Source: Clostridia bacterium
Lineage (GTDB): Bacteria > Bacillota > Clostridia > TANB77 > UBA1234
Length of the DNA stretch: 38,405 nt
NCBI GenBank assembly: GCA_017462965.1
Contig: JAFTQC010000009.1
Coordinates: 1-38,405 of the forward strand
Direction: 5' to 3'
In this document: positions 4,589 through 36,781 of the stretch, one piece after another
How the letters are laid out: every line of letters starts with the position of its first letter
Numbering within the stretch: position 1 is the stretch's first letter
Notes under the pieces: generated by a model
Database searches by the model: none
Told to the model about the DNA's origin: nothing
The model's input: the letters and a program-made list of their open reading frames with translations, nothing else
Program-made: the position numbers and the translations under genes

Positions 4589-4605
4589 AAAGAAAGGAGG
4601 CCCCT

Positions 4606-5112: not shown

Positions 5113-5131
5113 GGTGTTTTTGTATGGTTTG

Positions 5132-7118: not shown

Positions 7119-7185
7119 AATCATTCTCCTTTCAAAGAGCTGTGACATGGCTTACAGTTAATATATCATAGCTCTTTAGATTTTT

Positions 7186-10267: not shown

Positions 10268-10304
10268 ATAACTCTCCTTTGTGAACAAAATATTGATACG
10301 TTTA

Positions 10305-12968: not shown

Positions 12969-15900
12969 CAGATCCCCTCCCAATAAAATACTGTTGATGA
13001 TTGTTCAACATCACGCATCGAGCTTAATGTTGGTTTTTCTTTATCCGCATAATATTCCCCGAAATACGTTAACAATCTCTTTTTATCTTCCGCCACAGAT
13101 GGAACAAAATAGTACAATTTCTCACTTTTCGCAATATTTTTCCATGTATTAATGAATGACTCTATTTCCTCTTCAGTATTCGCATACGAAGATGGTGCTA
13201 TAGTTTTTACACGCTCTAAAATCATATTTTTGATCTCTTTCACCTGTAAATCAGTCAAATCATTAATGCATGATGCTCCACTATTGTCTGCCATTAGCTC
13301 TATCTGCAATCTAAGCAATGATACAACTAATGCATGCAAAACCCTATCTCGTGCACGAGCTGCAAATGGAGTTGCTGTCGTTCCTTCCACATAACGATAC
13401 ATCTGAGAATGAAAACCGACAAAATTTTCATAATTAGATAAATCTCTTGGTCTATACGGGTTATATACAGTAAAAATAATGCCAGGATGTTGACGTCCCA
13501 CACGGCTTGTTGCTTGTATATACTCAGAATTTTGTTTAGGTTGGCCTACAACAGACATTAATCCTAATCTATCTACATCCATTCCTACTGCAATCATATT
13601 AGTTGCTATTACCACATCATAGCAGTCTTGTTTTATTTTTTCCTTGTTATAAGGAATTGCCAATTTCTCTAAAACTTGAGCTATTTCCCATGAAGGAATT
13701 CTCGATGTTATCTCTTTCTTTCCATCAATCCCAATATATCGTTGCTCTATACTACCATACTTATTTTTCACTACACGGATTCTACTAGCGATGTCGTCGT
13801 CAAGAAGTCTTACCGCACCTCCTAACTCTCTAATACTGTTAAAATATCCGATAAGCGTATAATACGGGTCAACATAATCTTCATATTCTGGATCTTTTGC
13901 TAAATCAAAAGTCTTTTGCAAAATAATAGAATATAAACGAATCAAAGTTGTTTTTACAGATTGACCACTAGCACAAATACCCACATATTGTCTAAATGGT
14001 TTTTTCCCTTGTTGTAGCATTTCATATATGTCATCATCTGATGAAATACCCAGATCTTTATCCGGCAGTGGAACTTCTTTGATAAAAAAGGAATCTCTTG
14101 TATCAAATCCGCTTGGTGGAAATTGAGCAAAATCTTCACGACCATATAAATATTTTATCTGCTCGCTTGCATTCTTTATGGTGGCAGTTGATACAACATA
14201 TTTAGGCTTTATTTTTTTACCATTTTTTTGTGCACAACACATCTCTTCTACAACAGTTTCATATCCACCATATATAGTACCTAACGGACCAGTAATCAAA
14301 TGCAACTCGTCCTGAATAATAAGTTCTGGTGGATAAAACGCTTTACAAGACTTCACTTCTGCTTTCACTAAACCATATGCATTATCTGCTCGATGAGTAG
14401 TTGGGTGCTTTTCACCTACTGCCAAAAAACCACATCTTGAACAATGTCTATTTGTTCTACCAAACAATAATCCAACTTGTTCAGACCATGGCAATCTAGC
14501 AAACTTATCAACTGTAGAAATAATAACTGTAGGGCACTTCGCATATATCTCTTCATCTACAAGATATACAGGTATTGTTCTCCCTTTTGATTTCTCGAAA
14601 TAGCAGTTTCTATCCGCACAATGAATATTTACAAATCTACCTTTTTCATTGATTTCATATTCATCTTTTGTTATTTTCTTTCCACAATATGGACACTTTA
14701 TTATTTGTTTTGTTAGCTTGCGAATAAACTCCTTTTTCTTAAACTGGTCCGTGTCGCTATACTCACTAAATTTGTTTGGTGTAACATTGCCGCCAACCCA
14801 GAAGCCTATCGTAATCCTTTCATTACCATATAGTTCCGGATTTTTTTCACGCAATTGCTCCATTGCAACAATCAATCGCATCAATCTATCTCTCTGTTGA
14901 GTAGTTAACAAGCGCAATGTATAACGCAAAAATACTGTTACGCCACCGTCCTTTTCATATTCAGTTTCTTCTGATGCAGTTAATCTACGATATGCAATCG
15001 TAAAGGCAATTAAGCCAAGATATGCTTCTGTTTTACCGCCGCCAGTAGGGAAATAAAGCAAATCTACAATTTCTCGTTCTACCGATTCTCCATCAATTAT
15101 TCCATATAAATTCAAAAGTACAAATGCAATCTGGAATGGTCTCCATTCGCTATGATCTTGCTTACGACCTTTTTCCGGAACGTCTCTCATATAATCTCTC
15201 AAACTACATGGTACGTCATTTCCATAATCCCTGGAAAAGGATGTAATACTTCTTTGAAGATACATAGCTTGATTCATAAACGTAAATGCTTGGAAAACTT
15301 TCTCATCCTTTTCAATCAAATCTATTCCTTTGTTCATACGACGATTTGCTTCTTTGCATTTATCTATAATAGCTTGTCCTGTCAATGCAAAATGGCTATT
15401 CTGCATCTCTGCATTATTTACTAATTCACGGCTAATCCAAGTCCCATAACAGTCTGTCAATGCACGCAACATATCGACGGTCTCTGCCTTCTTTTTAGGC
15501 GTTCCCATACGCAACATTGAAAATGCATGTTCTGGCATTTCTTCTATCTGAGCACTTACACTTGGAATTTCATAATCTGGAATAAATGACGTCCTAACGC
15601 ATGTTGCATTAACTTCATCAACTGACTTATCCCATACCGCTGCACATCCTCTACCTCTTGCATATACAGGTCGTCCTTTGTAATAATACTCGTCTTCCAG
15701 TTCAACCTTACGACACACAAATTCCGGAACAAAAATGGGATTCATCATGTCATCTGCAATCAGCATTTCTACTTGGAACATTACCTTCTCATACTCTTTT
15801 TCTTCACCACTAGACTTGTCATTATTATGCAAATAAACAGATACCATTTTATACCCATTATCTAACTTCATTTGCATAATATACACATACACATTGCTGT

Positions 15901-16435
15901 TGCTTTCCAGAAATAATTGTTTAGAACGTCCTATAGAAGATAAATCTATCTCAACAACATCTTCCATTGCTTCTCTGCGGTAGACCGTATGTTTCTTTTT
16001 TTTCTTATTTTCCGCATCTTCTTCTAAAGATTCGTCCACTATTTCTCCTTGCACTTGTTCCGCATAATAACGTCCCCATTTTATATAGGCATTTATGGAT
16101 GCCACATCATTCTTAATATAAAAGGACACGCCAATTGAGGAAGGCTTTTGAAAACCTCCCTTTATTCTATCCTCTGGCTCTTCCTCTTCAAAAATCGATG
16201 CTTCCATAGATTCCCCTTCAGAATCAAACTTCTTTTCTGTAAATTCTACATCAAAGTAATTCTCATCCTCTGTTACCGCTGAATCAGCTGGATACAGTAA
16301 GCCTGTAATATAACTACTGGTTGGAATCTCGTTTAAAACTTCTTCTGGTGAACCTGGTCCTATCAAATCCTGGCGCACTGCATCCAATATTTTTTGCCTA
16401 ACTATTGCATGTTTATAGTCTTTTATATCAGCCAT
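12968..16435 (-). CDS. drmA: DISARM DrmA helicase
   Basis: A 1155-residue SF2 helicase. The N-terminal ~400 residues have no simple motif, then come the DrmA hallmark WRPFQIAFVLLNL and Walker A in LLYFPTGGGKTEAYLGL (about residue 460), a DEAH-box variant in IIQDELHLITGPLGT, SAT-like VSTATIKNAS, and a C-terminal helicase lobe ending NMIAVGMDVDRLGL and YIQATSRVGRQ. A Cys cluster (CPYCGKK, then CADRNC and CSRCGF) lies between the Walker A and B motifs. With DrmB it would recognise and process invading DNA. The ATG at 16435 has GGAGGAGG 4 nt upstream; a longer frame to 16456 lacks a site. It starts 22 nt after the end of the Res-like gene. Confidence 0.93.
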   Translation of the reverse strand: MADIKDYKHAIVRQKILDAVRQDLIGPGSPEEVLNEIPTSSYITGLLYPADSAVTEDENYFDVEFTEKKFDSEGESMEASIFEEEEPEDRIKGGFQKPSSIGVSFYIKNDVASINAYIKWGRYYAEQVQGEIVDESLEEDAENKKKKKHTVYRREAMEDVVEIDLSSIGRSKQLFLESNSNVYVYIMQMKLDNGYKMVSVYLHNNDKSSGEEKEYEKVMFQVEMLIADDMMNPIFVPEFVCRKVELEDEYYYKGRPVYARGRGCAAVWDKSVDEVNATCVRTSFIPDYEIPSVSAQIEEMPEHAFSMLRMGTPKKKAETVDMLRALTDCYGTWISRELVNNAEMQNSHFALTGQAIIDKCKEANRRMNKGIDLIEKDEKVFQAFTFMNQAMYLQRSITSFSRDYGNDVPCSLRDYMRDVPEKGRKQDHSEWRPFQIAFVLLNLYGIIDGESVEREIVDLLYFPTGGGKTEAYLGLIAFTIAYRRLTASEETEYEKDGGVTVFLRYTLRLLTTQQRDRLMRLIVAMEQLREKNPELYGNERITIGFWVGGNVTPNKFSEYSDTDQFKKKEFIRKLTKQIIKCPYCGKKITKDEYEINEKGRFVNIHCADRNCYFEKSKGRTIPVYLVDEEIYAKCPTVIISTVDKFARLPWSEQVGLLFGRTNRHCSRCGFLAVGEKHPTTHRADNAYGLVKAEVKSCKAFYPPELIIQDELHLITGPLGTIYGGYETVVEEMCCAQKNGKKIKPKYVVSTATIKNASEQIKYLYGREDFAQFPPSGFDTRDSFFIKEVPLPDKDLGISSDDDIYEMLQQGKKPFRQYVGICASGQSVKTTLIRLYSIILQKTFDLAKDPEYEDYVDPYYTLIGYFNSIRELGGAVRLLDDDIASRIRVVKNKYGSIEQRYIGIDGKKEITSRIPSWEIAQVLEKLAIPYNKEKIKQDCYDVVIATNMIAVGMDVDRLGLMSVVGQPKQNSEYIQATSRVGRQHPGIIFTVYNPYRPRDLSNYENFVGFHSQMYRYVEGTTATPFAARARDRVLHALVVSLLRLQIELMADNSGASCINDLTDLQVKEIKNMILERVKTIAPSSYANTEEEIESFINTWKNIAKSEKLYYFVPSVAEDKKRLLTYFGEYYADKEKPTLSSMRDVEQSSTVFYWEGI

Positions 16436-16457
16436 ATAACCTCCTCCAGCCAACACG

Positions 16458-19154
16458 TTATTCTTCTACGTCAATAGTGACTGCTAGCCCCGCAACATAC
16501 TTCAAGGTATTTCCAACAATAATCTTATCCCCAGGAATCATTCTATATTCCCAAGTCTTACCGTCTGCATCGACTTCTGTCGCACATTGACACCACTTAA
16601 TCGCTGCTTTAGCCTTTTCCTGCACCTCATCATTATCAGTTTGATTGCTTGCTTTTACCTCTATCATATACTTCTTATCCGTTGTTTCGACTAAGAAATC
16701 AGGATTGTACTGTTTCGCAGCACGGTAAAACAAACCAAGTTGATTCAACGGCGGCTTTATGAAGCGAATCACATCTTCATCCTCTTCTAATATTACCGAT
16801 AATCTTCTTTCATCATCACTATCAAAAGCATTCTCTGCATAATATGACTTTTTGTATCCTGTAAAAAGATACTGTCTAATACTTTTCTTATCTGAAATTT
16901 CTTTCTTATAATGCAATCGTCCATCTGCTTTCATATTTTTGACAAATTGACCAAATACAATAAGATCTTGCTGAACGTTGTATACAAACTCCGTTTTTTC
17001 ATCCTTAGATGCATATATCTGTGTCCTCAAATCGTCAACAATCAACGTCGCATATCTTCGAACAATCTTTTTCTTATCTTCTGCACTACCCTCAATCAAT
17101 GCCAAATATTGATCAACTACATCAAGAATAAACTCAGCGTCATCCGAACTAAATTCTGGAATGCTTTCTAACAGCGAGACCGCCAACATATTTTCTGGAT
17201 TTTCTACAATTAATGCATCTGCATCTAACACCTGCAACAATTTTTCATTAATTGTGTCATAACGTTCAATTTTCGATGCTGCCAAATCAAAATCTTGAAT
17301 ATTTCTCTTTACCTGAAACGGCTTAAATGTAATTGCGGAACTGTAGCTAATACATATTTTCGGAACTGAAATTGCAACTCTTTTTAATTCTTCAATCTTT
17401 TGAACAAACAGTTCTTTCGCATACGGAACTATCGCTTTTAATCCAGATGATTTCGGAAAATCTACCTGTTCCATTCTTGTATCATTCTGTACAAATACCG
17501 AATCTGCTACCGGAGTTACTTCCTGTTCACTGCCTGTCGCTGCCGACTGCGTCTCCTGCATCATATCGAATAATGATAACTGTCCACTGTCTTCCGTCTG
17601 CTTCTTCGGCATATTTTTCTTGACGTATGCCTTTTGATATGATTCAAACAGTTTTTCCGTAGTCTGTTTATCACTAATATCTTGATATGACTTAATTCCA
17701 TTTTCACGCAAAGCTTCATCAAACAAAGATAACTGTGCCGTCTCTACTACCGTTTCTACTTGAACCGTTTTTACATCTGGAATGTCTTCTTCATCTAAGT
17801 TTCTCTTCTTAAATACAGGATTATTTTTGATATCATCAATAATCTCTCGATAATGATCATGCGCTACAATATCCAAGGTATCTAATTCTTCTATCCCTGT
17901 AATTTCACCAAACGGTAAACGTAATCCTCTACCAATAGTCTGCAAAGCCAAAATATCACTTTTCGCAGCGTTTAAAGGAATAATGGTAAAGAGATTATTT
18001 ACATCCCAACCTTCTTTTAACTTATACACATGTAAAACAATTTCAATTGGATTTGTATTCTTTTCAATGGTCAAAAGTTTTTGAATGTTTTCCTCTGTTT
18101 CCGCACCGCTAGTACTAGAGTCAATCTCAATTACCTTTCCGACATATCTTCCACCAAAGAAAGCATCAGAATCTATCTTCTCCTTAATCTTCTTGGCATG
18201 TGTTGTGTCTTTACATGCAACTAAAACAATAGGTTTTACTTGCTCCACTCCATTCTCAAGACAATACTTATAAACAATGGCTTTCCTCCTCTCATGAAGC
18301 TTAATACCATCTTTCAATTTCATCTCTTCAATATCATCATCTGAATATCCCGCTGTATTAGTTCTGCCCATAACTACAGGAATCTTTAAAAACTTTCCTG
18401 CACCTTCTTCTAAACCATAATGATATATTATGTTCTTATTTGTAGATTTAGGTGTTGCAGTAAATTCAAGTCCTAATATTGGATTCAAATAATTGATAGC
18501 GGTCTTCGAAGCCGGAGCATAATATCTATGCGCTTCATCCATACATATTACAAGATCATCAAAAGAACGCAGAACCTCCGCAAAGGAACCACCTAAATTC
18601 TCGTGAAACTTGTGGAATTTGAACTCTAAGTCACCACGCGTAAAAATCTTTGCAATATTGAAAATAAATATCTGAATTTCAGACGTATTTTCAACAAACA
18701 TTTCCTGCTGAACATATTTTACCGGATACGACAAATAGTTTTCTCCATCATACACCTTCGGTCTACCCATTTCTGCTTCAAGACCTTTAAACATATATTT
18801 AGGATGTCCCGGCACAGCTTCTCTTCTCATCTTGTCATAAATTGTATTTCCTGGTGCCAAGATAAAAAAGTGCCTATATCCTTTGGTTTTGTACAAATAG
18901 TAAATACATGCGCCCATAAGACGAGATTTACCAATACCTGTTGTCATATCAAAACAAAAGGACGGGAAATCAAACTCTTTATCTACTGTAATCTTATGAG
19001 GATTCTGGCAATACTCTGATGCTACTTTTTCTGCATTCTCTTTATCTATAGTTTTATATTCTACTCTAGAACTAATTGCATCAAAATACTTTAATGCCTC
19101 ATATTGAGGGTCTCGCAAGCTCATGGCCCATTTAATTTTATCTACGGAACTCAT
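16458..19154 (-). CDS. type III restriction enzyme Res-like helicase-nuclease
   Basis: An 898-residue SF2 helicase with a C-terminal nuclease motif. Walker A is MTTGIGKSR (TTGIGKS at 71-77), Walker B/DEAH is CMDEAHR (206-209), and motif VI is LQTIGRGLRLPFGE. Near the end, NPDFLVE then YMIEVKAS gives a PD-(D/E)XK site (Asp819, Glu832, Lys834), as in type III Res subunits. It would translocate or switch along DNA and cut it when paired with the Mod-like gene upstream (2-nt gap). Lengths of type III Res proteins are similar. A Glu/Gln-rich linker near residues 500-560 separates the helicase from the C-terminal half. Its place between the methyltransferase and drmA is not part of standard DISARM. 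Confidence 0.87.
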   Translation of the reverse strand: MSSVDKIKWAMSLRDPQYEALKYFDAISSRVEYKTIDKENAEKVASEYCQNPHKITVDKEFDFPSFCFDMTTGIGKSRLMGACIYYLYKTKGYRHFFILAPGNTIYDKMRREAVPGHPKYMFKGLEAEMGRPKVYDGENYLSYPVKYVQQEMFVENTSEIQIFIFNIAKIFTRGDLEFKFHKFHENLGGSFAEVLRSFDDLVICMDEAHRYYAPASKTAINYLNPILGLEFTATPKSTNKNIIYHYGLEEGAGKFLKIPVVMGRTNTAGYSDDDIEEMKLKDGIKLHERRKAIVYKYCLENGVEQVKPIVLVACKDTTHAKKIKEKIDSDAFFGGRYVGKVIEIDSSTSGAETEENIQKLLTIEKNTNPIEIVLHVYKLKEGWDVNNLFTIIPLNAAKSDILALQTIGRGLRLPFGEITGIEELDTLDIVAHDHYREIIDDIKNNPVFKKRNLDEEDIPDVKTVQVETVVETAQLSLFDEALRENGIKSYQDISDKQTTEKLFESYQKAYVKKNMPKKQTEDSGQLSLFDMMQETQSAATGSEQEVTPVADSVFVQNDTRMEQVDFPKSSGLKAIVPYAKELFVQKIEELKRVAISVPKICISYSSAITFKPFQVKRNIQDFDLAASKIERYDTINEKLLQVLDADALIVENPENMLAVSLLESIPEFSSDDAEFILDVVDQYLALIEGSAEDKKKIVRRYATLIVDDLRTQIYASKDEKTEFVYNVQQDLIVFGQFVKNMKADGRLHYKKEISDKKSIRQYLFTGYKKSYYAENAFDSDDERRLSVILEEDEDVIRFIKPPLNQLGLFYRAAKQYNPDFLVETTDKKYMIEVKASNQTDNDEVQEKAKAAIKWCQCATEVDADGKTWEYRMIPGDKIIVGNTLKYVAGLAVTIDVEE

Positions 19155-19156
19155 TC

Positions 19157-20668
19157 TTATACCTCACTCTCAAATGTACATTTCTTCAGTAAATCTTTCG
19201 GTATCTTCTTTACCTCCACATTCTCTGGCAACATCATATCTGCTTGATTTTTCTTACAATAAATTAACAAGCTCTGTCTCTCACCTAATGTTTTCATAAC
19301 AGACATTACATATTTTGTATTTACAAACTCTTCTGTAATATGAATAAATCTATTTTCAGAAGAATAACCCTGAAATTCTCCTGCTGGAGCATATGTAAAT
19401 CCTTCTATTTTACATATTGCTTCACATACCATTTCCCAAGTATATGAAGGATTTATTTGGTATACTGGCAATACAGGATTTTTTACAAGCAAAGGTTCTG
19501 CAAGTTCATAAAACTTATAACCACCACCGCCTTGCCAAGCAACTTCTTTGGATATACCACCTTGTTCGCCCTCAACAACACTATCCATTCTAACTTTACA
19601 ATGTGTATAACAATGATCTCCTAGCTCTATTCCAATCCATTTCCTGCCCATCTTATGCGCAACAGCCGCCGTAGTACCTGACCCCAAAAAAGAATCTAAA
19701 ACTATATCGCCCGGCTTTGTGGCTAAAAATATAATTCTTTGAATTAGTCTCTCTGGCTTTGGTGTTGCAAATACTGATTCCATGTTAAATTTTTTAACTT
19801 CTCTCTTCGCTTCTTGATTATCTCCCACTTCAGTACGATACCAAATAGTTTTACATACCATTCCCTGCTTTACTTCCGATAAAAATCTCTTGACCCTAGG
19901 TACTCCTTGTCCATCACTCCCAAAATAAATTCTGTTATCAGCCAATAATTCTTCATATCTTTGTGGACTACACATCCAACTTCTCCCTTGTGGAGGATTT
20001 ACAACACGCCCAGCAGGGGTTGTTATTGGATAATCACAACTAGCAGAATATGTTCTCACATTTAAATTATCTGATTGCCATGGTCCTCTTGGATCATTAT
20101 CTGGATTTTTATATCTCGCATCCATTTCTGCAGAACGTTCCATTAAATTTGGACGCCAGACATTTTTATTTTTAGCATAAACCATTATAAAATCATGACT
20201 ATCTGACAGCCACTTTGCATCATTTTGTGGAGCATACTTTTTTTCCCAAATTACATTTGCAACAAAATTGGTACGTCCAAATATTTCATCTAATACAATT
20301 TTCAAATATGCCTGCTCATCATCATCAATGCTAATCCAAATACTGCCATCTTCGGAGAGCAGATTATACATAATTTCTACTCTTTTTCTTATTAATGATA
20401 ACCATATGGAATGTTGAAGCCCATCATCATATTGCTCAAAAGCGTTACCCGTATTATATGGCGGATCTATATATATACATTTTACCTTCCCCGCATAATC
20501 ATGCTCTAATGCTTTAAGCGCCAAAAGATTATCTCCATGAATCAGCATATTCTCTGCGTTCTCATCACCATAAGACTTTGATTTATCTTCAATCAAAATT
20601 CTTGGCTCTAACTTCTCTTCTTCATATTTACCAACCCATGTAAGTTCTAATTTCCCTCTCTTGTCCAT
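19157..20668 (-). CDS. N6-adenine DNA methyltransferase (type III Mod-like)
   Basis: A 503-residue beta-class methyltransferase: the catalytic motif IV comes first (IDPPYNTGNAF; DPPY at 68-71) and the S-adenosylmethionine-binding motif I comes later (DSFLGSGTTAA at 325-335, followed by GIELG). The ~200 residues between them hold the target-recognition region. N-terminal LELTWVGKYEE and ENMLIHGDNLLALKAL are typical of Mod-like enzymes next to a Res gene. AGGAGG lies 5 nt before the ATG. Here it stands where class 1 DISARM carries drmMI, but it is shorter and of the type III Mod kind. It would protect host DNA at the sites cut by the operon's nuclease. Confidence 0.88.
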   Translation of the reverse strand: MDKRGKLELTWVGKYEEEKLEPRILIEDKSKSYGDENAENMLIHGDNLLALKALEHDYAGKVKCIYIDPPYNTGNAFEQYDDGLQHSIWLSLIRKRVEIMYNLLSEDGSIWISIDDDEQAYLKIVLDEIFGRTNFVANVIWEKKYAPQNDAKWLSDSHDFIMVYAKNKNVWRPNLMERSAEMDARYKNPDNDPRGPWQSDNLNVRTYSASCDYPITTPAGRVVNPPQGRSWMCSPQRYEELLADNRIYFGSDGQGVPRVKRFLSEVKQGMVCKTIWYRTEVGDNQEAKREVKKFNMESVFATPKPERLIQRIIFLATKPGDIVLDSFLGSGTTAAVAHKMGRKWIGIELGDHCYTHCKVRMDSVVEGEQGGISKEVAWQGGGGYKFYELAEPLLVKNPVLPVYQINPSYTWEMVCEAICKIEGFTYAPAGEFQGYSSENRFIHITEEFVNTKYVMSVMKTLGERQSLLIYCKKNQADMMLPENVEVKKIPKDLLKKCTFESEV

Positions 20669-20677
20669 GGTATCCTC

Positions 20678-23269
20678 CTAAAATTTAATTACCATCTTTA
20701 CATACAATAATGGTTTTCTAACTATTTCACGCTCAAACTCTTCTTGCATCCTAGAAGCTTCTGTTTCTAACATACTTACTTCGTCATGAAAACTTTTTAT
20801 CATTTCTTCCTGTTTACTTTTCAGTTCTTCCAATCTCTTTTTTAACGCAATTTTTCGTCTAAAATCTGCTTCTACTTCATACTGGCTCATAAGCTCATCC
20901 GTATCAGAAGTATCCTTTACTTTTAGAACATACTCTTCTTTTCGTAATTCAAGCCAATTATCAACTTTCAAATTATGGTTTCTAATGATTTCTCGCTTCG
21001 ATTCCTGATAGTTGCGCCATAGAAATTGCTCTAACTTTTCAATATATGCTATTACACTTGCGTCATTGGCATTTTGTTCTTTTATTTTGACATCCTCTAT
21101 TTGTGAAACTAGCTCTCGCACCATTTCGTCTTCCACTGTAAACATTTTCCCTTGTTCGTCAACAATGTAGAAAACACAGTTTTCAATAGAATCATCTAAA
21201 TAATATCCACCTATCAAAATATATCCATGCTCAATTTGAGAAATATGCAACTTCTCCTGCATAACATAGTACTTTGGAAACCTACCATATTCTCCAGAAG
21301 TATTTATTTTACCCCAATACCGTTTTTGAGATTGGTATTTCTCTATATCATCCATAATTCTCTCAAAACTTTGCTTATGAGCATCTGGTGTCTTGTGAGT
21401 AAGAAGACCTCTTAACTCATCCATTTTTCTGTTTCTTTTTCGTTCTAATTCTTTCTCTAACGCTGAAAATTCTTTCGTAAACTCTGCTGCTGACCTACAC
21501 TCTTGATATATCTGTGAAACTCTTTTTTCAAAGTCAGCCCCACTTTCTAATAGGCCTATTGCTTTGTCTGACGCACCAAATACACCTTGAAACAATTCAA
21601 ACTTTTCCGAAAGAATTTCATATACCCGTCTATCTGCAACATTCTGCGTATTAAGTAAATTAATAACTACCACATCATTTTTTTGACCATATCTATGACA
21701 ACGCCCAATACGCTGCTCGATTTTCTGCGGATTCCAAGGTAAGTCATAATTTATAACAGTATTGCAAAATTGCAAATTCAAACCTTCAGAACCAGAATCT
21801 GTTACCAACAAAATTTTGTATTCATCACGAAATGCTTCAACTATTGCATTTTTTATTTCTACATTTCTACTTCCATAATTGCGTCCGTAATTTCTGGCCT
21901 TCCAAGCTTTATATATTTGCTTAGTTATATTGTCATTTGCACTCCCGTTAAATTTCAATATTTGCCCCTCATATCCGTTCTCTGATAAGGTTTCAAATAT
22001 ATATTGCTGTGTTCGAACAGATTCGGTAAAAATAACAATCTTGTTCGCAATGCCTTCTTTTTCTTGAAAATTAAACGCAGTAATTACAGCTCTTTTTAAA
22101 GCAGTCATCTTTGCATTTCTTTGAATATTTTCTGACTTAGTAATTATCTCATCAACTTCATCGATTTCGTGCTGAATAAACTGATTAACCTTTTCTCTTG
22201 TATATAACTCGTCCTGTTTACTTTCTTCTGTTTCTTCAACATCCTCCTCGTCAAAGAAACTAAAGAAAAAATCTAAACTTTCATCTGCTGTTTCTTTCCT
22301 TGTAGTTTCTTTTAATGTTATCAGACGATTTCTTAACACCTTAAATGTTTCTGCTACTGCCATACTTGATGAAGCCAAAAGTTTTCTTATTACTGACGTA
22401 ATCAACGCACGGCGTGAATTGGGTAATGCATACAAAATCTCTTTTTGAAGATAATTGTTTATCAGCACATATAACTCAATCTCCGGCAAGGATAATTCAA
22501 AATCAACTGTCATCTCTTTTCTTTCAGAAAAACGAACATATTCTGCCACTTCACTCCTTAGAGTGCGCTGTACTACTGGTTCTAATAATTTTTTCAAATC
22601 AGAATACTGTTCATTTCGCAAGTATCTCTCGTTGAAAACCGCCTTGCTATAAAAGATACGATCGTCTACATACTGAACTAAACCATAAATATCAAGTAAC
22701 GAATTCTGCATAGGAGTAGCGGTCAACAGAATTTTAGGTATGCCTTTTGTAAGCTCATGCAATGCATTTGCCATCTTGGAGCCATTTTTATGAACATTTC
22801 TTAACCTATGTGCTTCATCAAAAACACAAAAATCCCAGGCCACTTTCCCAATGTCAGCTTTTCTCTTCGCCGCAAAATTGTATGACATAATAACAACTGC
22901 CTGCTTCTTTTTAACTGCCACTATGTAATCTTCCCAATTAGAACTATCTACAATAAGTGCTTCAATATTAAATTTCTCTTCTAATTCTAATTGCCATTGT
23001 TTCCGTAAATTTGAAGGCATAATTAGCAAAATTTTCTTCCAACCACTTTGAAGTAAATACTTTATCACAAGACCAGCTTCAATAGTCTTTCCCAAACCAA
23101 CTTCATCTGATAAAATTGCGCCCCCTAAAGGAATAGCAGAAAGTGCGAATGTAAATGCTTCTATCTGGTGTGGATTAATATCAATCTCTGCCGATTCCAG
23201 ACAGCTATATGGACTTTTATTCAATTCTTGCTGTTTGATTTCTGCATAAACTGATTCAACAACACCCAT
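20678..23269 (-). CDS. drmD: SNF2/RapA-type helicase (DrmD-like)
   Basis: An 863-residue SNF2-family translocase. Motifs: INPHQIEAF (Q motif region), Walker A SDEVGLGKTIEAGL (55-68), DEAH 151-154 in VFDEAHRLRN, LTATPMQNSL, SEGLNLQFCN, and PWNPQKIEQRIGRCHRYGQ. The last ~250 residues are Lys/Glu-rich with long coiled coils. A SNF2 helicase next to a methyltransferase and upstream of drmA and drmB is the arrangement of class 1 DISARM, where it is called DrmD. The assignment rests on family plus position, since SNF2 proteins occur in other defence loci too. It begins 15 nt after the cytosine methyltransferase, with AAAGGAG upstream. Confidence 0.82.
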   Translation of the reverse strand: MGVVESVYAEIKQQELNKSPYSCLESAEIDINPHQIEAFTFALSAIPLGGAILSDEVGLGKTIEAGLVIKYLLQSGWKKILLIMPSNLRKQWQLELEEKFNIEALIVDSSNWEDYIVAVKKKQAVVIMSYNFAAKRKADIGKVAWDFCVFDEAHRLRNVHKNGSKMANALHELTKGIPKILLTATPMQNSLLDIYGLVQYVDDRIFYSKAVFNERYLRNEQYSDLKKLLEPVVQRTLRSEVAEYVRFSERKEMTVDFELSLPEIELYVLINNYLQKEILYALPNSRRALITSVIRKLLASSSMAVAETFKVLRNRLITLKETTRKETADESLDFFFSFFDEEDVEETEESKQDELYTREKVNQFIQHEIDEVDEIITKSENIQRNAKMTALKRAVITAFNFQEKEGIANKIVIFTESVRTQQYIFETLSENGYEGQILKFNGSANDNITKQIYKAWKARNYGRNYGSRNVEIKNAIVEAFRDEYKILLVTDSGSEGLNLQFCNTVINYDLPWNPQKIEQRIGRCHRYGQKNDVVVINLLNTQNVADRRVYEILSEKFELFQGVFGASDKAIGLLESGADFEKRVSQIYQECRSAAEFTKEFSALEKELERKRNRKMDELRGLLTHKTPDAHKQSFERIMDDIEKYQSQKRYWGKINTSGEYGRFPKYYVMQEKLHISQIEHGYILIGGYYLDDSIENCVFYIVDEQGKMFTVEDEMVRELVSQIEDVKIKEQNANDASVIAYIEKLEQFLWRNYQESKREIIRNHNLKVDNWLELRKEEYVLKVKDTSDTDELMSQYEVEADFRRKIALKKRLEELKSKQEEMIKSFHDEVSMLETEASRMQEEFEREIVRKPLLYVKMVIKF

Positions 23270-23284: not shown

Positions 23285-24559
23285 TTATTTCTTACTCAAC
23301 TGCTCTTTTATCTTATCCGCTATTTGTTTCGCCATCATCGGAGGAACAGCATTCCCGATTTGTACAAACTGGGCTGTACGTGGTCCCTCAAAATAGTAAT
23401 TATCCGGAAATGACTGCAATCGAGCAGCTTCTCTTACTGTAATTGATCTATGCTGATCAATATCCGGATGTATAAAGTAATGCCCATCCTTTGACAAATG
23501 TGCCAAAATCGTATGACAATACTCCATATCCCCTTCAACCACTTTAAAACGGTCTGTGAATGATGTTCTATTTGTATGGGTCTTCAGATTTTCTGGCAAA
23601 TCGTCATATCGTAATCGCTTATGTTGACTGTTAGAATACCATAAATCAATTACACGTTTATAAATTTCGATATCCTGATCTGTATGAGGTCTGGCTACAT
23701 GTCCAGTCAACACATCTGCTTTTTCTCGGATAGCATTTTTCTTCACATAGCTCTTTACTTTTCTCATATCGTGCACAAGATAATCATCCGACTTCCCACC
23801 TGGCTTTAATGAAGATAAATCATCCAACAAATCGCTAACCAATGCCTTTCCCGTAATAATATTAAACTCTGGGTATTCATAACCGGTTCCTTTTAGCCAA
23901 CCAACAATAATTACTCGTTTTCTACTTTGTAATACGCCAAAGTCTTTAGCATTCAACTCATGTGGCTCTATTTCATATCCCACTCTTCTCATATAGCTTT
24001 GAAGATTTTTATATGCTTGTCCGCCGCGTGCAGTTTTGATACCTGCCACATTTTCAAATACAAACATTCTTGGTTTGTATTTTGTTAAAAACTGTACATA
24101 CATCTTGTATAATTCATTTCGCGGATCTTCTTCCATTGGCACAAGCATATGACTACTTTGTGCTCTTCCAACAAGCGAATATGCTTGGCATGGCGGGCCC
24201 CCTACAATAACATCTATTTGTTTTAAACCTTTCTCTGCCATAACTGTATCAATTGTCTTAAAAATGTCTTTGATAGTTGCTGTAGACATTTCTTTATTAA
24301 TCACAGTTTTTAGTTCCTCCGCCGGAACTAACTTCAACAAGTCTTCTCTAGATATTTCACCCTTCTCATATTTATAATAACTATCCAATTTACCTTGTTC
24401 TTTTAGGTAAAAGTACGCTATTCTCGTTTGCAATGTCTTTGCCGCATATTCATTCATTTCAACATGGGCGACTGGTTCGAAACCGCTTTGCATAAAGCCT
24501 TCCGACAGCCCACCTGCCCCTGCAAACAAATCTATATAATTCAGACTTCCCGTCTCCAT
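23285..24559 (-). CDS. DNA (cytosine-5) methyltransferase (DrmMII-type)
   Basis: A 424-residue C5-methyltransferase with all main motifs: I (IDLFAGAGGLSEGF), IV (VGGPPCQAYS, catalytic Cys124), VI (FENVAG), VIII (QSRKRVIIVG) and IX/X (SITVREAARLQSFPD; QIGNAVPPMMA). About 60 residues of extra sequence lie between motifs I and IV. The frame opens with a GTG at 24571, but the ATG at 24559 has GAGGTG 9 nt upstream. C5 methyltransferases mark class 2 DISARM (drmMII), whereas drmD marks class 1, so this operon combines both. It sits 51 nt after the regulator gene; a TATAAT within that gap might provide an internal promoter, but no matching -35 is seen. Confidence 0.92.
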   Translation of the reverse strand: METGSLNYIDLFAGAGGLSEGFMQSGFEPVAHVEMNEYAAKTLQTRIAYFYLKEQGKLDSYYKYEKGEISREDLLKLVPAEELKTVINKEMSTATIKDIFKTIDTVMAEKGLKQIDVIVGGPPCQAYSLVGRAQSSHMLVPMEEDPRNELYKMYVQFLTKYKPRMFVFENVAGIKTARGGQAYKNLQSYMRRVGYEIEPHELNAKDFGVLQSRKRVIIVGWLKGTGYEYPEFNIITGKALVSDLLDDLSSLKPGGKSDDYLVHDMRKVKSYVKKNAIREKADVLTGHVARPHTDQDIEIYKRVIDLWYSNSQHKRLRYDDLPENLKTHTNRTSFTDRFKVVEGDMEYCHTILAHLSKDGHYFIHPDIDQHRSITVREAARLQSFPDNYYFEGPRTAQFVQIGNAVPPMMAKQIADKIKEQLSKK

Positions 24560-24610
24560 AATCCTGTTCACCTCATTATATCATTATTGTTGTCCAATAA
24601 ACAGGACTTA

Positions 24611-24877
24611 TCACTCTGACAGGGACATCTTTTCCAACAAATCGTATCCTTTGTCTAAGATAATATAACGGCCCTTTGCATGCGCCATCTGTATGTATCC
24701 TTCTTCAGCCAACTCCTTCATTAACTGATTTGTTTTAACTTTTCCACAATCAATAAGCGTAGCTATCTCTTGCTGGTTCAACGGGCACACTTTCTTTCCA
24801 TCAATTTCAATTTGTTTTTCCTTTAAAACCAATAAGATTTTTGTCTTTTCATTTACAAAATTTAAAACGTCGTTCAT
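24611..24877 (-). CDS. small winged-helix transcriptional regulator of the DISARM-like operon
   Basis: An 88-residue protein consistent with a winged helix: NQQEIATLIDCGKVKTNQLM as the helix-turn-helix (about residues 34-53), then ELAEEGYIQMAHAKGRYIIL as the recognition helix end and wing. Similar small HTH proteins precede other defence operons. It is the first gene of the operon, with its ATG at 24877 after AGAGGG. A perfect palindrome lies directly on the predicted transcription start in front of it, so it probably represses its own operon. That would hold back two methyltransferases and several nucleases until needed. The link between this protein and the palindrome is inference. Confidence 0.78.
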   Translation of the reverse strand: MNDVLNFVNEKTKILLVLKEKQIEIDGKKVCPLNQQEIATLIDCGKVKTNQLMKELAEEGYIQMAHAKGRYIILDKGYDLLEKMSLSE

Positions 24878-24893
24878 ACACTTTCCCTCTATT

Positions 24894-24953
24894 TTTCAAA
24901 ATGTATCAGTTTCATTTTGAAACCATTATACCATTAATATGAACGTTCTACAA
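24894..24953 (-). promoter_or_regulatory. promoter and palindromic operator of the DISARM-like operon
   Basis: On the minus strand a consensus -10 TATAAT (24930-24925) is preceded at 17 nt by a poor -35, TTGTAG (24953-24948). The predicted start near 24918 falls inside an inverted repeat with perfect 10-bp arms, TTTCAAAATG (24894-24903) and CATTTTGAAA (24913-24922), spaced by 9 nt. An 8-bp palindrome GAACGTTC (24941-24948) covers the upstream part of the promoter. A bound repressor would block initiation. Confidence 0.7.
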
Positions 24954-25009
24954 CCATTTACTATATGTTGACTGCAGGAACCCACAACCGTGCTTGTAAG
25001 GCAATAAGA

Positions 25010-25050
25010 AAGGCACTAACCCTCGGATTCACCCCAGCAATTAGTGCCTT
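25010..25050 (-). terminator. hairpin at the end of the 287-residue gene, probable terminator
   Basis: Perfect 10-bp arms AAGGCACTAA (25010-25019) and TTAGTGCCTT (25041-25050) enclose a 21-nt loop; outer bases AATAAG and TTATT extend the pairing with a bulge. On the minus strand the stem is followed by TCTTATT. It lies about 80 bp beyond the gene at 25131-25994 and separates it from the DISARM-like promoter. The loop is longer than usual, so a transposon-derived relic is also possible. The rest of 24954-25130 shows nothing further. Confidence 0.5.
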
Positions 25051-25130
25051 ATTGGCATCACAGCCTAGCACAGCTGTCTCCTACAGTAAACATATTAATT
25101 ATTACACCACATAAATTTTATTTGCATTTG

Positions 25131-31395: not shown

Positions 31396-34300
31396 CTATT
31401 CTCCTACTTCCGTAATTCTGCAACCTTGTGTTTGATTAATGTATTGGATAATCTCTGGAAATTTATTTCCATGAATATGAGGGTTGTTAAGGAAATCCAA
31501 ATCACCTACAATTATCAATAATGATTGTGCTCTTGATAGAGAAACATTTAACCGTGCTTCCGATTTTAGGAATCCGATTCTGTTCGCTTTACTACTACTT
31601 CGCACAGTGGAATAAATAATTACTTCTTTTTGCCCTCCCTGAAAAGCATCTACAGTATCAACTTCCACATGCAAATATTTGAAATTCTGTTGTTTAATCA
31701 TATCTTTTATTGCCGACTTTTGAGCCCTATATGCTGTTATAACACCAACTCGAATTACTCGAGAAGTCAATGAATCTAATTCATGCAACTTATCTCTAAT
31801 AATGCTAATTTCAGCATCATTTTTATAAGTAGCATTGGTTTCATTTCCGACTTTTTTCTCATACCGTTTAGCCGTTGAAAGTTTCGAGGTAGTTATCCAC
31901 TCGATTGCTACATCATTATAATCATCGATTCCTATATTGCGCTTTTCTTTCGGAGTTCCATTCTGTATTTCATTTTCATAAAACACCTTACTAATCAAAC
32001 TACCAATAACAGGATGCATCCTATACTGTATAGATAATCTATGCTTATTTTCCTTTGGGAAATTATCATATAACTTTTCGAACAATCCTTCTGTAAAATC
32101 ATCCTTATGAAGCGTTTCCTTATTTTCTTCAATAATATCTGTATCAAGAACTGGAGGTAATTGTTTGTGATCTCCTACCAAAATTATCTTTTCAGCCTTA
32201 GAAAATGATACCGCTAATTCTGGATATGTAGCTTTGGCAGCTTCATCTACAATTACATAATCGAAAGTTGTATTTCTAAGTACTCTGTTAGATATAAATC
32301 CAGTACAAGTACCTGCAATAATTGTAGTATTTTTAATTATATAGAGATCTACTTCTTCACACTGCGACAATCTCTCACTCCATTGTTTTTGAATTTCCAA
32401 TATCTTACGAAGTTTTTCCTTACTTGGTGTATTGGTTTTGCTGCCAAATGACTCTATCAATCCTTCATCAATAGTTTGTGGTTCAATATTAGACACAAAC
32501 TTTTTCTCATATTCTTTGTAATAAGATTCAAACTCAGTATAGGAAACACCTAATTCTTTGCAATACGATTCAGCCATGTCTTTGCAATTTTTTCTAACTT
32601 GATCAACCCAATTATCTTTAACATAATTCAACCCAAATTCTTCTCGAATTTCATCGTTAAGCTTTTCATCACGACCAACTCGAATTAAATTAGGTTTCAC
32701 TGGGTTCTGCTGGATTAAATCATCTAGCATTTTGTCTACTGCAGGGTGCGACTGTGATACCAAAAGAATTTTCTTTTCTGGCAAATCTGGATAATCAGCA
32801 TTATTCTTCAAAATTTGTCGGATAATCTCAATAACCACATTTGTTTTCCCTGTACCTGGAGGACCCTGAATAATTGCAATAGATTCAGAATAAAGTGCCT
32901 TTTCAACTGCTGCCGCCTGAGAAGAATCAAGTCTTGCATTTAAAAATTTAATTTTGCCATACAATTGATCTGTTTTAGGACTCGAAACTCCTGCAAAAAT
33001 TTCTTTTAAACTATATGAACAAGTATAGTTTTCCCTTTCGATGCTGTCTAAAGCATCTAACTGACGGTCAATGTTTATCATATTCTCACTGTAATCCAAA
33101 CAGATAAATCCCTTTGCCGGCAAACCTTCTGGTTTCCTTAAAAATCTTATTTTTAATATAACGTGCTCATCTACTAAGATATCCTCGTCATAGTTACCGA
33201 TATATATCAATTTATTTTTATCTTTTTTCTTCTTCTCAAACACAAAGCGTGTTTCTTTGTTAAAAATCGTATCACCAAAAAATACTCCGTCACTCAACTT
33301 GAAACTACAAATATTTCCTTCAATTTTATACGAATCATAACTGAACCTTTGAACACTCTCTTCAATACTTTTTTTTGTTAACGTTAATAATTCACGCCAT
33401 GCACCGTACTTTTTCTTATATTCTGCATCAACATTGTCCTTTGAACGATAACCCTCACAATATGCATCCACAATATTCTTGATTTCTAAATTATCATTTT
33501 GAGGCAATTTGTGAATGAATCTAGGATCCGGCAAAGAAAGCTTTGCTGATATTTCACAAAACTTTCTTTTCATAATTTCTCTTTCCAATGGAACAATTTT
33601 TTGTACTTTTGCAACCATAAAAATGTTAGTATTTTCGTTATAAATACATTCAAGGTAATAGTTAGTTCCTAAAAATTGATATTTGTCATCATCTTGACTA
33701 ATATACAACTCCATATAATTACTAGGAACAATATCATTTATATCTCTTATTGTGGAATTTCGCGGAATTAGATTCAAATTTTTCAGTTTATTGAATTTTT
33801 CGAAATCTAATGTTAAAACAGCAGTATATCTTACATCTAGAAATCTTTCCAATATTTCTGCTAAATCAGCTTTTAACTCCGATATATCTTTATATCTCTC
33901 ACCAGGGGATTCTGCAACTAATTTTGCAATGATAGGCTTTAATTCAATATCAAATCCAGATGCTTTTTCAATAATATCTTGAAAAGCTGTAGCTACCGGT
34001 GGTTGTTTCCCTGTGAATAAATAGTACATTACTGCACCAATAGAATACAAATCACTTTGTTCAGTTGCATTTTGACTATGTAAATGAACTTCTGGTGCTG
34101 AATATAAATTAGTACCCATACGAAAAACAGTGGCACTATTTACCATTTGCTTTATCTTACAAATACCAAAATCTATTACTTTAACATCTTCATTTTCATC
34201 TAGCATAATATTATTCGGATTAATATCTCGATGAATTATGCCCTCGTGGTGTGCTGTTTCTATTGCAGATAACAACTGTTTTACTATTTTGAATTTCTGT

Positions 34301-34641
34301 TTAGAAGTCAGTTGCGTAATATTTTTATTTGCAAGTGTTTCACCACTAATATATTCCAAAAAAATACATCCAACTTTTTCTTTTCTTTGTGTAGCAGCAT
34401 CTGTTGCTATCATATTGCTATAGTTGATTATTTTCACAATATTATCGCAAGAATTAAGCCTATGCAAAGCTTGTACTTCTCTTAAAAAAATCCCTTGGTA
34501 TAAAGGCTGATCAATACCGTATATGACTTTACGAACATATAGATTTCCTGTTTGCTCATCCTGAACAAGGTCAACTATGGAATTTGTATCACCTCGCTCG
34601 CTTAATCTACGAATCCCTTTTAACTCACTATATTTAGACAT
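31396..34641 (-). CDS. mkoA: Ser/Thr protein kinase fused to SF1 (Upf1/COG1112-like) helicase, MkoA-like
   Basis: A 1081-residue two-domain protein. The kinase (about 10-270) has all catalytic parts: Lys38 (YVRKVI), Glu55 (LREVQAL), HRD 137-139 (IIHRDINPNNIML), DFG 157-159 (VIDFGIC) and YSAPEV. The helicase has Walker A GPPGTGKT (593-600), VIVDEAAKATYPE, LVGDHKQLPP, IQYRMHP, DAFQGGQKEV and NVSLSRAQSLLI, the order of Upf1-like superfamily 1B. This fusion is the defining feature of MkoA in the Mokosh type I anti-phage system as I know it. GAGGTGG lies 6 nt before the ATG at 34641; the frame start at 34656 overlaps that site. It sits 28 nt after the nuclease/TPR gene and 2 nt before the winged-helix gene. 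No membrane segment is seen. Confidence 0.85.
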   Translation of the reverse strand: MSKYSELKGIRRLSERGDTNSIVDLVQDEQTGNLYVRKVIYGIDQPLYQGIFLREVQALHRLNSCDNIVKIINYSNMIATDAATQRKEKVGCIFLEYISGETLANKNITQLTSKQKFKIVKQLLSAIETAHHEGIIHRDINPNNIMLDENEDVKVIDFGICKIKQMVNSATVFRMGTNLYSAPEVHLHSQNATEQSDLYSIGAVMYYLFTGKQPPVATAFQDIIEKASGFDIELKPIIAKLVAESPGERYKDISELKADLAEILERFLDVRYTAVLTLDFEKFNKLKNLNLIPRNSTIRDINDIVPSNYMELYISQDDDKYQFLGTNYYLECIYNENTNIFMVAKVQKIVPLEREIMKRKFCEISAKLSLPDPRFIHKLPQNDNLEIKNIVDAYCEGYRSKDNVDAEYKKKYGAWRELLTLTKKSIEESVQRFSYDSYKIEGNICSFKLSDGVFFGDTIFNKETRFVFEKKKKDKNKLIYIGNYDEDILVDEHVILKIRFLRKPEGLPAKGFICLDYSENMINIDRQLDALDSIERENYTCSYSLKEIFAGVSSPKTDQLYGKIKFLNARLDSSQAAAVEKALYSESIAIIQGPPGTGKTNVVIEIIRQILKNNADYPDLPEKKILLVSQSHPAVDKMLDDLIQQNPVKPNLIRVGRDEKLNDEIREEFGLNYVKDNWVDQVRKNCKDMAESYCKELGVSYTEFESYYKEYEKKFVSNIEPQTIDEGLIESFGSKTNTPSKEKLRKILEIQKQWSERLSQCEEVDLYIIKNTTIIAGTCTGFISNRVLRNTTFDYVIVDEAAKATYPELAVSFSKAEKIILVGDHKQLPPVLDTDIIEENKETLHKDDFTEGLFEKLYDNFPKENKHRLSIQYRMHPVIGSLISKVFYENEIQNGTPKEKRNIGIDDYNDVAIEWITTSKLSTAKRYEKKVGNETNATYKNDAEISIIRDKLHELDSLTSRVIRVGVITAYRAQKSAIKDMIKQQNFKYLHVEVDTVDAFQGGQKEVIIYSTVRSSSKANRIGFLKSEARLNVSLSRAQSLLIIVGDLDFLNNPHIHGNKFPEIIQYINQTQGCRITEVGE

Positions 34642-34669
34642 GTTTATCCACCTCATTATCCCATTTTAT

Positions 34670-36781
34670 TTATTCCAATATTGTTAATTTCATTTTTTCT
34701 TTAGGAAATGTCAACTGCGTTTGATGCGTTTCATCAAATACTAATAATATCGCAGCCTCATTAAATCCACAGTCCTTATTGAGTTGATCGACAAATCTAT
34801 CCATACTATTTGAGAGCGGATTAATCTCAAGTCTTATATCAACTTGTCCAATTATCGCGTCACCTGTAAGTTTATTACCAATAACTTTCATTTCAACACT
34901 TATATCATCTGCCCGAATCACATACTCCCTTATATGTTCTCCAAATTCGTGATTTAAGTGAAGTACTCTTTGATCTAAAAGGCTCTCCATCATATGTTTA
35001 TATGATTCATAATCATCATATAATTTAAAAATTGTCGGTACCGCAACTTCATCGAAAATAGTCTTTGAACTTTTCCTTATAGGATTTTCCTCATCTTGCA
35101 AAGTAAATTGCAGCATACTGATTTCAATTTGTGGAGGATATAATCCAATTGCCGTTCTGGCCATATTATTATCCGTTCGATATGAAAACACTTCCTGATT
35201 CTCTAAAAAGACTCTCATACCATTCTCCATCGATTGAACAAAAAACGGATACAAATATTCTCTTCCCCAGTCTATTACCGGAATCTTAACTTCGCCTACT
35301 ATGTTATGTTTTCTTCTAAATACTTCATTCCACTTTTGAAATGCAACTTGCCATCCACTAGCATCTATATGAAATTTGTTTGTAGCTAGCATTAATAAAA
35401 CGGCTTCGTTTTCATCATCCCCACTATAAGCAACATATTTTTCACAATTTTCAACAACTGAAGTAAAATCATCAAACAATTGGCTAATTTGCGCCCTCAA
35501 CATATATGCCTTCGCACATTTAGGTTCCAAACACAGTACATGATCTAAATATTCTGTTGCTAACTCCGCATTTGACTTATAGATTAAGGAAGCAAAAAAT
35601 ACATACGCATCCACAAATTTATCATTAAGCTCAATACACTTCTTCAATGCTTCCTTTGCATTTTCATTATCTTCTAATCCCTGATAATTTATTGCACTTA
35701 TATAAAAAACAATACAATCCCATTCACTTTGATCTATGGCTTCCAAGCATCTTTGTGACTCGCCAAATTCCATTTTATACATATGTGCTTTTGCAAACTC
35801 AACAATACAATCAACTTCTTTCCTACACAGGTCCTTTCGTTCAATAACAGCATCGTAATCTCCCATTATATTCAAGATCATGAGAAGTATCCCTTCCAGT
35901 TCTTGGCACATTTTCAAAATACTTTCAATACTATTTTTAGCTTCTAATAATTGATCATTTTCAAGAAAGAATTTTATTAATAAAAGCTTATCCTTTATAC
36001 TTTCATATTCTATAATCAAACCATCAATAAAAGCTGAAATATCCCTTTTTGTCTCTTTTTCAATTACAGAAGAAACACGTTGTCCCTTAGGAATAAATGA
36101 TTCTATCTTGCTCGTCTTATGCTTCTTAATAATTTCTCCTAAATCATTTTTAGACAAATGTCCACCTATTGGTCGAAAGCGGTTACAGATTAATGCCGCC
36201 AATTCATTAAATAGTGCATCAGTATCAATATAAATATTTTTATTTCGTGCCCACTTTTCGATTGCGCTTTTTGCAATATCAATTCTACTCGTGCTTTCAA
36301 CTGCAAAAAAATCACATTGTAGAAATTTTTTTACATCAATCTTACTCTTTTTACAAAGTTCATCCATTTCTTTAAATAACTCTTGTTTATCTTCATATAA
36401 AATTCCATCTCGTGCCTGTAAATATCTGTTTTTATATTGTAGCAAATTTCGAAAATCATCATTACACTCCGAACCTATAAAAACCGTCTCCTCAAGGATA
36501 TTACTTGTTCGTAATAATTCTGACACCTTGGGCAAAGTGAATTGATTGATTTTTACTTGAAAATGTAATCGTCTACCATTTTCAAGAACAATGCAAAAAT
36601 CGTTTTTTGATTCAAATGTAATTTCTGCCAACCCCTTTTCAAGATATTCAAACATGTACTTTATGCTTGCGCAATCTTGTTCTGAAAAGCCAATACTGCT
36701 TATCATACCACCAACATTTTTTCGTCCATTTACATAATCCATTTTACTGTACTCCTCTTTTATTCTTTCGTTTTCAAGCAT
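34670..36781 (-). CDS. protein with N-terminal restriction-nuclease-like motif and TPR repeats
   Basis: A 703-residue protein. Near the N-terminus, NVGGMISSIGF is followed by ITFESKNDFCIVL and LHFQVKINQF: Glu57, Asp61 and Gln75-x-Lys77 form the E-D-QxK arrangement of a PD-(D/E)XK fold like that in Cap4/DUF4297 effectors. Residues about 365-475 are TPR-like helical pairs (NAKEALKKCIELNDKFVDAY, then ATEYLDHVLCLEPKCAKAYM). The C-terminal ~200 residues are unrecognised. The start is the ATG at 36781 with GGAAG 5 nt upstream; the frame itself opens with a TTG four codons earlier. As first gene of the kinase-helicase operon it may be a sensor-effector. The nuclease assignment rests on a short motif. 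Confidence 0.65.
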   Translation of the reverse strand: MLENERIKEEYSKMDYVNGRKNVGGMISSIGFSEQDCASIKYMFEYLEKGLAEITFESKNDFCIVLENGRRLHFQVKINQFTLPKVSELLRTSNILEETVFIGSECNDDFRNLLQYKNRYLQARDGILYEDKQELFKEMDELCKKSKIDVKKFLQCDFFAVESTSRIDIAKSAIEKWARNKNIYIDTDALFNELAALICNRFRPIGGHLSKNDLGEIIKKHKTSKIESFIPKGQRVSSVIEKETKRDISAFIDGLIIEYESIKDKLLLIKFFLENDQLLEAKNSIESILKMCQELEGILLMILNIMGDYDAVIERKDLCRKEVDCIVEFAKAHMYKMEFGESQRCLEAIDQSEWDCIVFYISAINYQGLEDNENAKEALKKCIELNDKFVDAYVFFASLIYKSNAELATEYLDHVLCLEPKCAKAYMLRAQISQLFDDFTSVVENCEKYVAYSGDDENEAVLLMLATNKFHIDASGWQVAFQKWNEVFRRKHNIVGEVKIPVIDWGREYLYPFFVQSMENGMRVFLENQEVFSYRTDNNMARTAIGLYPPQIEISMLQFTLQDEENPIRKSSKTIFDEVAVPTIFKLYDDYESYKHMMESLLDQRVLHLNHEFGEHIREYVIRADDISVEMKVIGNKLTGDAIIGQVDIRLEINPLSNSMDRFVDQLNKDCGFNEAAILLVFDETHQTQLTFPKEKMKLTILE

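Follow-up and report, generated by a model that had tools for sequence, protein, structure and literature searches.

Controller (C) proteins of R-M systems have a helix-turn-helix of the XRE/Cro type. They are autogenous regulators encoded with the R-M genes that they control, as passages of two papers describe (PMC12707154, PMC6237814), and those of typical type II loci activate first according to the relevant passages of one of them (PMC12707154). A second kind of control is represented by RptR, a small lone regulator of 79 amino acids (aa) that stands beside type I R-M operons and represses from the promoter. According to the same paper (PMC12255303), its binding sites are TAGCTA palindromes of 6 bp in repeated copies, and its range spans the Gammaproteobacteria. 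Repressors of the CapW/BrxR, CapH with CapP and CapK with CapS kinds lie ahead of diverse defence operons, DISARM being named among them, and passages of the source state that the CapW, CapH and CapS kinds carry or pair with a sensor of DNA damage, which may be a WYL domain, a protease or a kinase (PMC13373217).

The window, as the whole stretch of 38,405 nucleotides analysed here is called, carries a DISARM-composite operon headed by a small gene whose 88-aa product can be set beside these regulators. RptR is the nearest in role, being likewise a small lone regulator (79 aa versus 88 aa) when compared by description, but the head protein here is a winged helix of the CRP type, and an exact search found no TAGCTA motif in 24878-24990. 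The XRE/Cro-type fold of C proteins is not seen in the window's protein, whose fold is of the CRP type and whose conserved promoter element lies downstream of the -10. Together with the C proteins, the CapW, CapH and CapS regulators come closest in concept. Compared with the described parts of the CapW/BrxR, CapH with CapP and CapK with CapS systems, it is a bare DNA-binding domain, with no sensor partner seen in the operon. The CRP/FNR regulators are alike in DNA-binding domain and fold, but the head protein, at 88 aa in total, has no sensor domain. Lone regulators of defence operons are a known kind, while the CRP-type family treated here is undescribed in the literature searched: no description of it was found among the matches listed, from a literature in which subscription papers lay mostly outside. 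We consider the head protein likely to be a dedicated autorepressor that acts locally and is built from a lone CRP-type DNA-binding domain, with both its binding and its repressive sign predicted from sequence.

The DISARM-composite operon and its head protein

The DISARM-like operon proposed in the initial annotation is borne out by PADLOC (Table 1). Behind the head gene the run reads drmMII-drmD-mod-res-drmA-drmB-drmC (PADLOC), followed by a 72-aa frame and a GmrSD gene (Pfam), all co-directional and with gaps of at most 39 bases, a layout that points to a single transcript for the head gene and the DISARM run. DrmA, a separate DrmB, the PLD nuclease DrmC and a methylase are all present in this one operon. 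Class 1 DISARM combines drmD with drmMI and class 2 combines drmE with drmMII, so that the window's operon, in which drmD is joined by drmMII and by mod and res genes of the type III-like kind, fits neither. Passages of a DISARM structure paper allow DrmMI and/or DrmMII (PMC9142583). DISARM diversity is also treated in parts of a preprint on YprA helicases, where the matching places covered, 12 of 23, make no mention of a head regulator of the CRP type (PMC12458937).

Table 1. Features of the operon and its promoter, in window positions.
Feature	Position	Strand	Basis
GmrSD-type gene, tail of run	8525-10288	-	Pfam GmrSD_N and GmrSD_C
72-aa frame between drmC and GmrSD gene	10305-10523	-	no Pfam match
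DrmC, PLD nuclease	10534-11223	-	PADLOC DrmC 1.7e-94
DrmB	11205-12983	-	PADLOC DrmB 7.8e-89; Pfam MZB
DrmA helicase	12968-16456	-	PADLOC DrmA 3.1e-285
Type III-like Res	16458-19154	-	PADLOC REase_III 2.7e-121
Type III-like Mod	19157-20668	-	PADLOC MTase_III 1.1e-168
DrmD, SNF2-type helicase	20678-23269	-	PADLOC DrmD 1308.5 bits
DrmMII, C5 methyltransferase	23285-24571	-	PADLOC DrmMII 1.5e-167
Lone CRP-type winged-helix protein, 88 aa, operon head gene; proposed autorepressor	24611-24877	-	Pfam, AF2, fold search
Palindrome of the initial annotation, 10-bp arms, 9-bp spacer	24894-24922		repeat finding, shuffles, arm pairing in relatives
22-bp conserved element directly downstream of -10, proposed operator (GGTTTCAAAATGAAACTGATAC)	24903-24924	-	alignment of 8 promoters; register-free search
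Candidate dyad GTTTC-N5-GAAAC inside element	24909-24923	-	pairs G-C and T-A kept in 8/8, next T-A in 7/8
Extended -10, TGG-TATAAT (TGGTATAAT)	24925-24933	-	sequence; aligned in 8 promoters; hexamer 24930-24925
Weak -35, TTGTAG, 17 bp from -10	24948-24953	-	sequence; TTG kept in 6/6 aligned promoters

In all 13 other DrmD loci the gene order is the same over the whole of the DNA retrieved, which extends to drmC in four of them. Nine of these loci came from genome contigs via DrmD and four from further genomes; to identify their genes, window proteins served as queries for tblastn or blastp, in place of PADLOC, and weaker DrmD relatives (L012-L018) were left out of the counts.

As the initial annotation had claimed, the first gene encodes an 88-residue winged-helix protein: it matches Pfam HTH_Crp_2 at 29.8 bits (cut-off 27), a profile matched at E <=0.01 by 15/15 aligned family members, and its AF2 model is a winged helix (pLDDT 84.5). 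The closest folds to this model are CRP/FNR DNA-binding domains, the first being 2zcw (E 1.4e-4), and the PDB profile matches of the protein also start with CAP; no NCBIfam model matches it at E <=0.01. No cyclic-nucleotide-type N-terminal sensor domain appears among its Pfam matches, nor does a WYL domain at E up to 1. Since 88 aa leave no room for a sensor domain, the protein is probably no inducible switch by itself.

Relatives of the head protein and exchange of operon heads

A recognised defence or R-M operon begins behind the winged-helix (wHTH) head in 21 of the 24 loci examined, which form an uneven sample from several searches of overlapping genome sets. These operons comprise five DISARM composites (window, L019, L026, L027, L049), eight type I R-M systems (L032, L035, L038, L063, L068, L069, L070, L071), two of type III (L066, L081), one of type IIG (L067), two methylases with a GHKL ATPase (L061, L078), one Druantia with DruA (L062) and two of the NsnA or GmrSD type (L036, L080), with L069 and L078 classed by likeness to L068 and L061 alone. 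A further locus, of the Schlafen/AlbA_2 type (L079), is uncertain as defence, and L064 and L065 show no recognised defence gene behind the wHTH head.

Relatives were found in 10/299 genomes of one large family (E 1e-8), in 6/392 genomes of that family's order with a narrower profile (E 1e-12; two already known) and in 3/391 genomes of the window's class (E 1e-6; own genome included). Matches in 10/398 genomes of the phylum left two that were kept (G000, G820), while L041-L048 (frames of 108-259 aa) were dropped, as were L002-L006 before the counts (open frames of 218-487 aa; L002 by eye LexA). Plasmid searches by DNA and by protein found nothing. Viral contigs gave one locus with A1 as query (L038) and nothing with P0001, A2, L061, L062 or the operator pattern, and phage records gave one scaffold, MT836552.1 (L032). 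On this scaffold, whose record bears the label bacteriophage, there are a resolvase-like gene, recognised by eye, and a wHTH-headed type I R-M gene; it resembles a mobile island more closely than a phage. In L038 a truncated type I methylase gene is followed by a resolvase-like gene, again by eye (4255-7284), and the methylase gene looks interrupted by a mobile element.

The gene before drmMII varies among DISARM operons. In 15 of them it is a wHTH in five, HTH_26 in six and HTH_17 in three, with none identified in one (L020); the HTH_26 assignment comes from a scan for three heads and from likeness for the other three. As L049 was found via its wHTH, it was set apart from the 14 operons found regardless of head (the window and 13 others), for which the counts are four, six, three and one, respectively. 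In the DrmD tree the wHTH-led L026 pairs with the HTH_26-led L028 (support 100/99), and starred branches of this tree require the wHTH label to have changed at least three times; the DrmMII tree requires a single change. DNA identity between L026 and L028 is 0.69-0.81 in drmMII and 0.86-0.97 from the end of drmMII (L026 ~6131) onward, and we read this step as a recombination joint at which promoter, regulator and drmMII would have been exchanged together. Across DISARM operons, wHTH heads are swapped for HTH_26 or HTH_17 heads. That such swaps occur between DISARM operons otherwise so close to each other suggests an evolution of regulation apart from that of the effector genes.

Promoter layout and the conserved element

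Read along the minus strand, TTGTAG is followed after 17 bp by TGG-TATAAT, then by the repeat, a GAGGG-type ribosome site and the ATG at 24877. The perfect 10-bp inverted repeat of the initial annotation, TTTCAAAATG-N9-CATTTTGAAA, was recovered with its arms at 24894-24903 and 24913-24922, and its claimed overlap with the predicted start of a TATAAT promoter also holds, the +1 being predicted by convention at ~24918, within the upstream arm of the palindrome. A promoter scanner reported no site here, because TTGTAG matches the -35 at 3/6 positions, under its threshold of 4/6. Perfect repeats with arms of at least 10 bp and spacers of at most 20 bp arose in 16/5000 dinucleotide shuffles of the 120-bp region and in 4/5000 of the 60-bp region. 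As eight repeats of this kind occur in the whole 38 kb, where 20 shuffles average 1.1, the size of the palindrome alone is unremarkable and its position is what is remarkable. Another perfect repeat, CTTGAAAATG-N11-CATTTTCAAG, lies inside a coding frame at 36556-36586.

Conservation at this promoter is highest in the 22 bp right after the -10. These align gap-free in eight promoters belonging to close relatives of the head protein (window, L019, L026, L061, L078, L062, L064, L079), with the consensus gGTTT..AAA..aAACtgAtAT and a mean pairwise identity of 0.72, compared with 0.315 in shuffles (sd 0.017; largest of 2000, 0.383) that flatter the block because the register of the alignment was set by eye. 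The operons behind the eight promoters differ, being DISARM, Druantia, methylase-GHKL, Schlafen-like and one unassigned, and the head proteins of five subgroup relatives are 43-93% identical to that of the window (L019 89%, L026 93%).

Because the register had been set by eye, the comparison was repeated free of register, by seeking the best match to the window's 22-mer within 120 bp upstream; the start codons of the relatives were also chosen by eye. This match lay directly after the -10 in 7/7 relatives, with scores out of 22 of 19 in L026 and L078, 18 in L061, 17 in L079 and 15 in L019 (each p <=0.017), and of 14 in both L064 (p 0.065) and L062 (p 0.088). The element was absent from 6/6 HTH_26-led and 3/3 HTH_17-led DISARM promoters (11-13/22, p >=0.217), and 15 of the 16 wHTH-led promoters outside the window's subgroup were without it. 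The element therefore goes with the window's protein subgroup and not with DISARM. The one exception is L080, a GmrSD-type operon with a wHTH of another subgroup, where a 15/22 match lies right after TATAAT (p 0.0065).

The conserved element thus lies at the predicted start of the head gene's own promoter, beside that gene. When the 2.07-Mb genome is searched with a 21-bp version of the site at <=3 mismatches, there is a single match and no second copy, a count that speaks solely to the lack of a second site because a reversed control pattern also gave one match.

Alternative explanations

It is possible to take the perfect 29-bp palindrome itself as the operator, although we judge this unlikely. 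Its 10-bp arms are perfect, sit at the predicted start and are rare locally, and L019 keeps 8/10 arm pairs together with 6-bp perfect arms round the same centre. However, pairing falls to 6/10 in L026 and to 3, 4, 5, 6 and 5 of 10 in L061, L078, L062, L064 and L079, and the right arm (4-6/10 identical to the window across relatives) is less conserved than the left (6-8/10). In addition, a distance of 19 bp between arms, start to start, is wide for a single CRP-type dimer. The left arm falls within the 22-bp block, as does most of the spacer, and since arm pairing decays in relatives and 24924-24903 is the best-conserved stretch, the perfect palindrome as a conserved operator could not be upheld past the closest relatives. 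The autorepressor at a palindromic operator envisaged in the initial annotation therefore stands as regards the winged helix and a conserved element at the predicted start, but not as regards an operator in the form of a perfect 10-bp palindrome.

Symmetry within the element was also considered. Dyad centres 9, 12 and 17 stand out, with best familywise p of 0.11, 0.16 and 0.41, respectively; centre 17 thus ranks among the best for the palindrome but reaches 0.41 at best, and, as none reaches significance once all centres are taken into account, the idea that the element has one dyad centre was rejected. GTTTC-N5-GAAAC has a familywise p of 0.11 to 0.34, which is not significant; GTT-N9-AAC is present in 7/8 promoters and GT...AC in 8/8. 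At centre 12 there are paired changes from CA/TG to TG/CA in L019 and L062 (familywise p 0.16; 0.998 by a second measure). In another subgroup, L035, L036 and L038 have perfect dyads over the -10, with arms of 8, 9 and 6 bp and shuffled frequencies of 0.012, 0/1000 and 0.13. A perfect dyad is not a general mark of the family, because 14 of the 24 wHTH-led promoters have none with arms of at least 6 bp within 60 bp, and of the ten that do, three (window, L035, L036) are at p <0.05, by frequencies from 1000 shuffles.

A controller of the C-protein kind, acting as an activator at low and a repressor at high concentration, is a distinctly improbable reading. The weak -35 (TTGTAG) would suit it, and C proteins are described in passages on their action as activating and then repressing their own operon (PMC12707154). 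Against this, the conserved element downstream of the -10 is in a blocking position, and the subgroup has no conserved element upstream of the -35 (identity 0.27-0.36). The activator-like position belongs instead to the exchange partner: five of the six HTH_26-led promoters (L021, L022, L023, L025, L028) carry a common TTYGARAAWTCRAA upstream of the -35, at 46-47 bp ahead of the -10, an activator-like position for HTH_26 as the alternative DISARM regulator.

We give equally little weight to the proposal that the block is just part of the promoter and of the first transcribed bases, passed on with the module, while the protein acts at another place or, in this case, not on DNA. In its favour, it is evident that promoter and gene move as a unit, and one pair of loci (L062/L064) has a block identity of 0.50, barely above the 0.47 at third codon positions. 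Among five representatives, however, the block has a mean identity of 0.68 (0.50-0.82 over ten pairs) compared with 0.25-0.65 at third codon positions, which it exceeds in all ten pairs and by at least 0.1 in nine. Moreover, conservation drops on both sides, with identity falling off gradually from the block to flanks of 0.27-0.36 (blocks ending at or before -22) and 0.34-0.37 (from 34 bp downstream).

A repeat that acts in RNA, as a 5' leader hairpin hiding the start codon, was rejected as very improbable, since the fold of the window's leader, which is better than in shuffles (z -3.15 from the predicted start and -2.78 from six bases earlier, with AUACAUUUU pairing with the start-codon region), is not shared by the six of seven other subgroup leaders that were folded (all but L078; z -1.27 to +1.59), and the predicted transcript begins inside the left arm.

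Proposed mechanism and purpose

The preferred reading remains a local autorepressor. The 88-aa protein would bind 24924-24903, presumably as a dimer of CRP-type winged helices, and would thereby cover the predicted start and block RNA polymerase sterically. Because the head gene is first in the run, this would amount to autorepression, keeping expression low and steady both for the head gene itself and for the DISARM and type III-like genes that follow in the same direction. The grounds for this reading are the fold class, the promoter layout, the occurrence of the element in unrelated operons, the lack of a second site and the exchange of heads, all of them taken from sequence.

We infer that the purpose would be to limit self-attack and cost, the protein serving as a steady-state dosage brake. 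In a naive cell that has just taken it up, the operon would at first be expressed in full, beginning with drmMII, before being turned down. The purpose suggested in the initial annotation, guarding an unmethylated host from the nucleases, is not supported: drmMII and mod lie in the co-directional run of the nucleases, so that repression cannot let methylation run ahead of cutting, and in a recipient that has no repressor yet the operon would start derepressed. A steady-state brake would fit better than protection of an unmethylated recipient. A short early burst, drmMII first, could help the recipient by a route unlike the one originally suggested.

More tentatively, and with rather less than even confidence, promoter and lone winged-helix repressor may together form a mobile head cassette on unrelated defence systems (DISARM, Druantia, type I/IIG/III R-M, GmrSD/NsnA) that is swapped for cassettes of the HTH_26 and HTH_17 kinds. 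The unrelated systems headed by the window's subgroup would then have an operator in common, through which a repressor already present in the cell could shut off a newly arriving system or join several systems in one dosage circuit. With relatives heading several kinds of anti-phage and restriction operon, the family may serve bacterial immunity as a volume control that can be moved from one system to another. Control of DISARM and Druantia is little described in the literature searched, and one small family with a readable operator would give a common handle on the dosage of several defence types as well as a way to find further defence operons.

Surroundings of the operon

Upstream of the promoter, 24955-25110 contains imperfect inverted repeats of 17 nt, with a AAGGCACTAA/TTAGTGCCTT repeat inside, and is a candidate terminator or small element; it is single-copy, with no copies elsewhere in the genome. 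A protein of 1086 aa encoded at 31396-34656 combines a Ser/Thr kinase with a helicase-type AAA (Pfam Pkinase, AAA_11, AAA_12) and is a candidate defence gene. At 5910-7392 a tyrosine integrase-like gene and a small excisionase-like gene were recognised by eye, and the defence island may be an integrated element.
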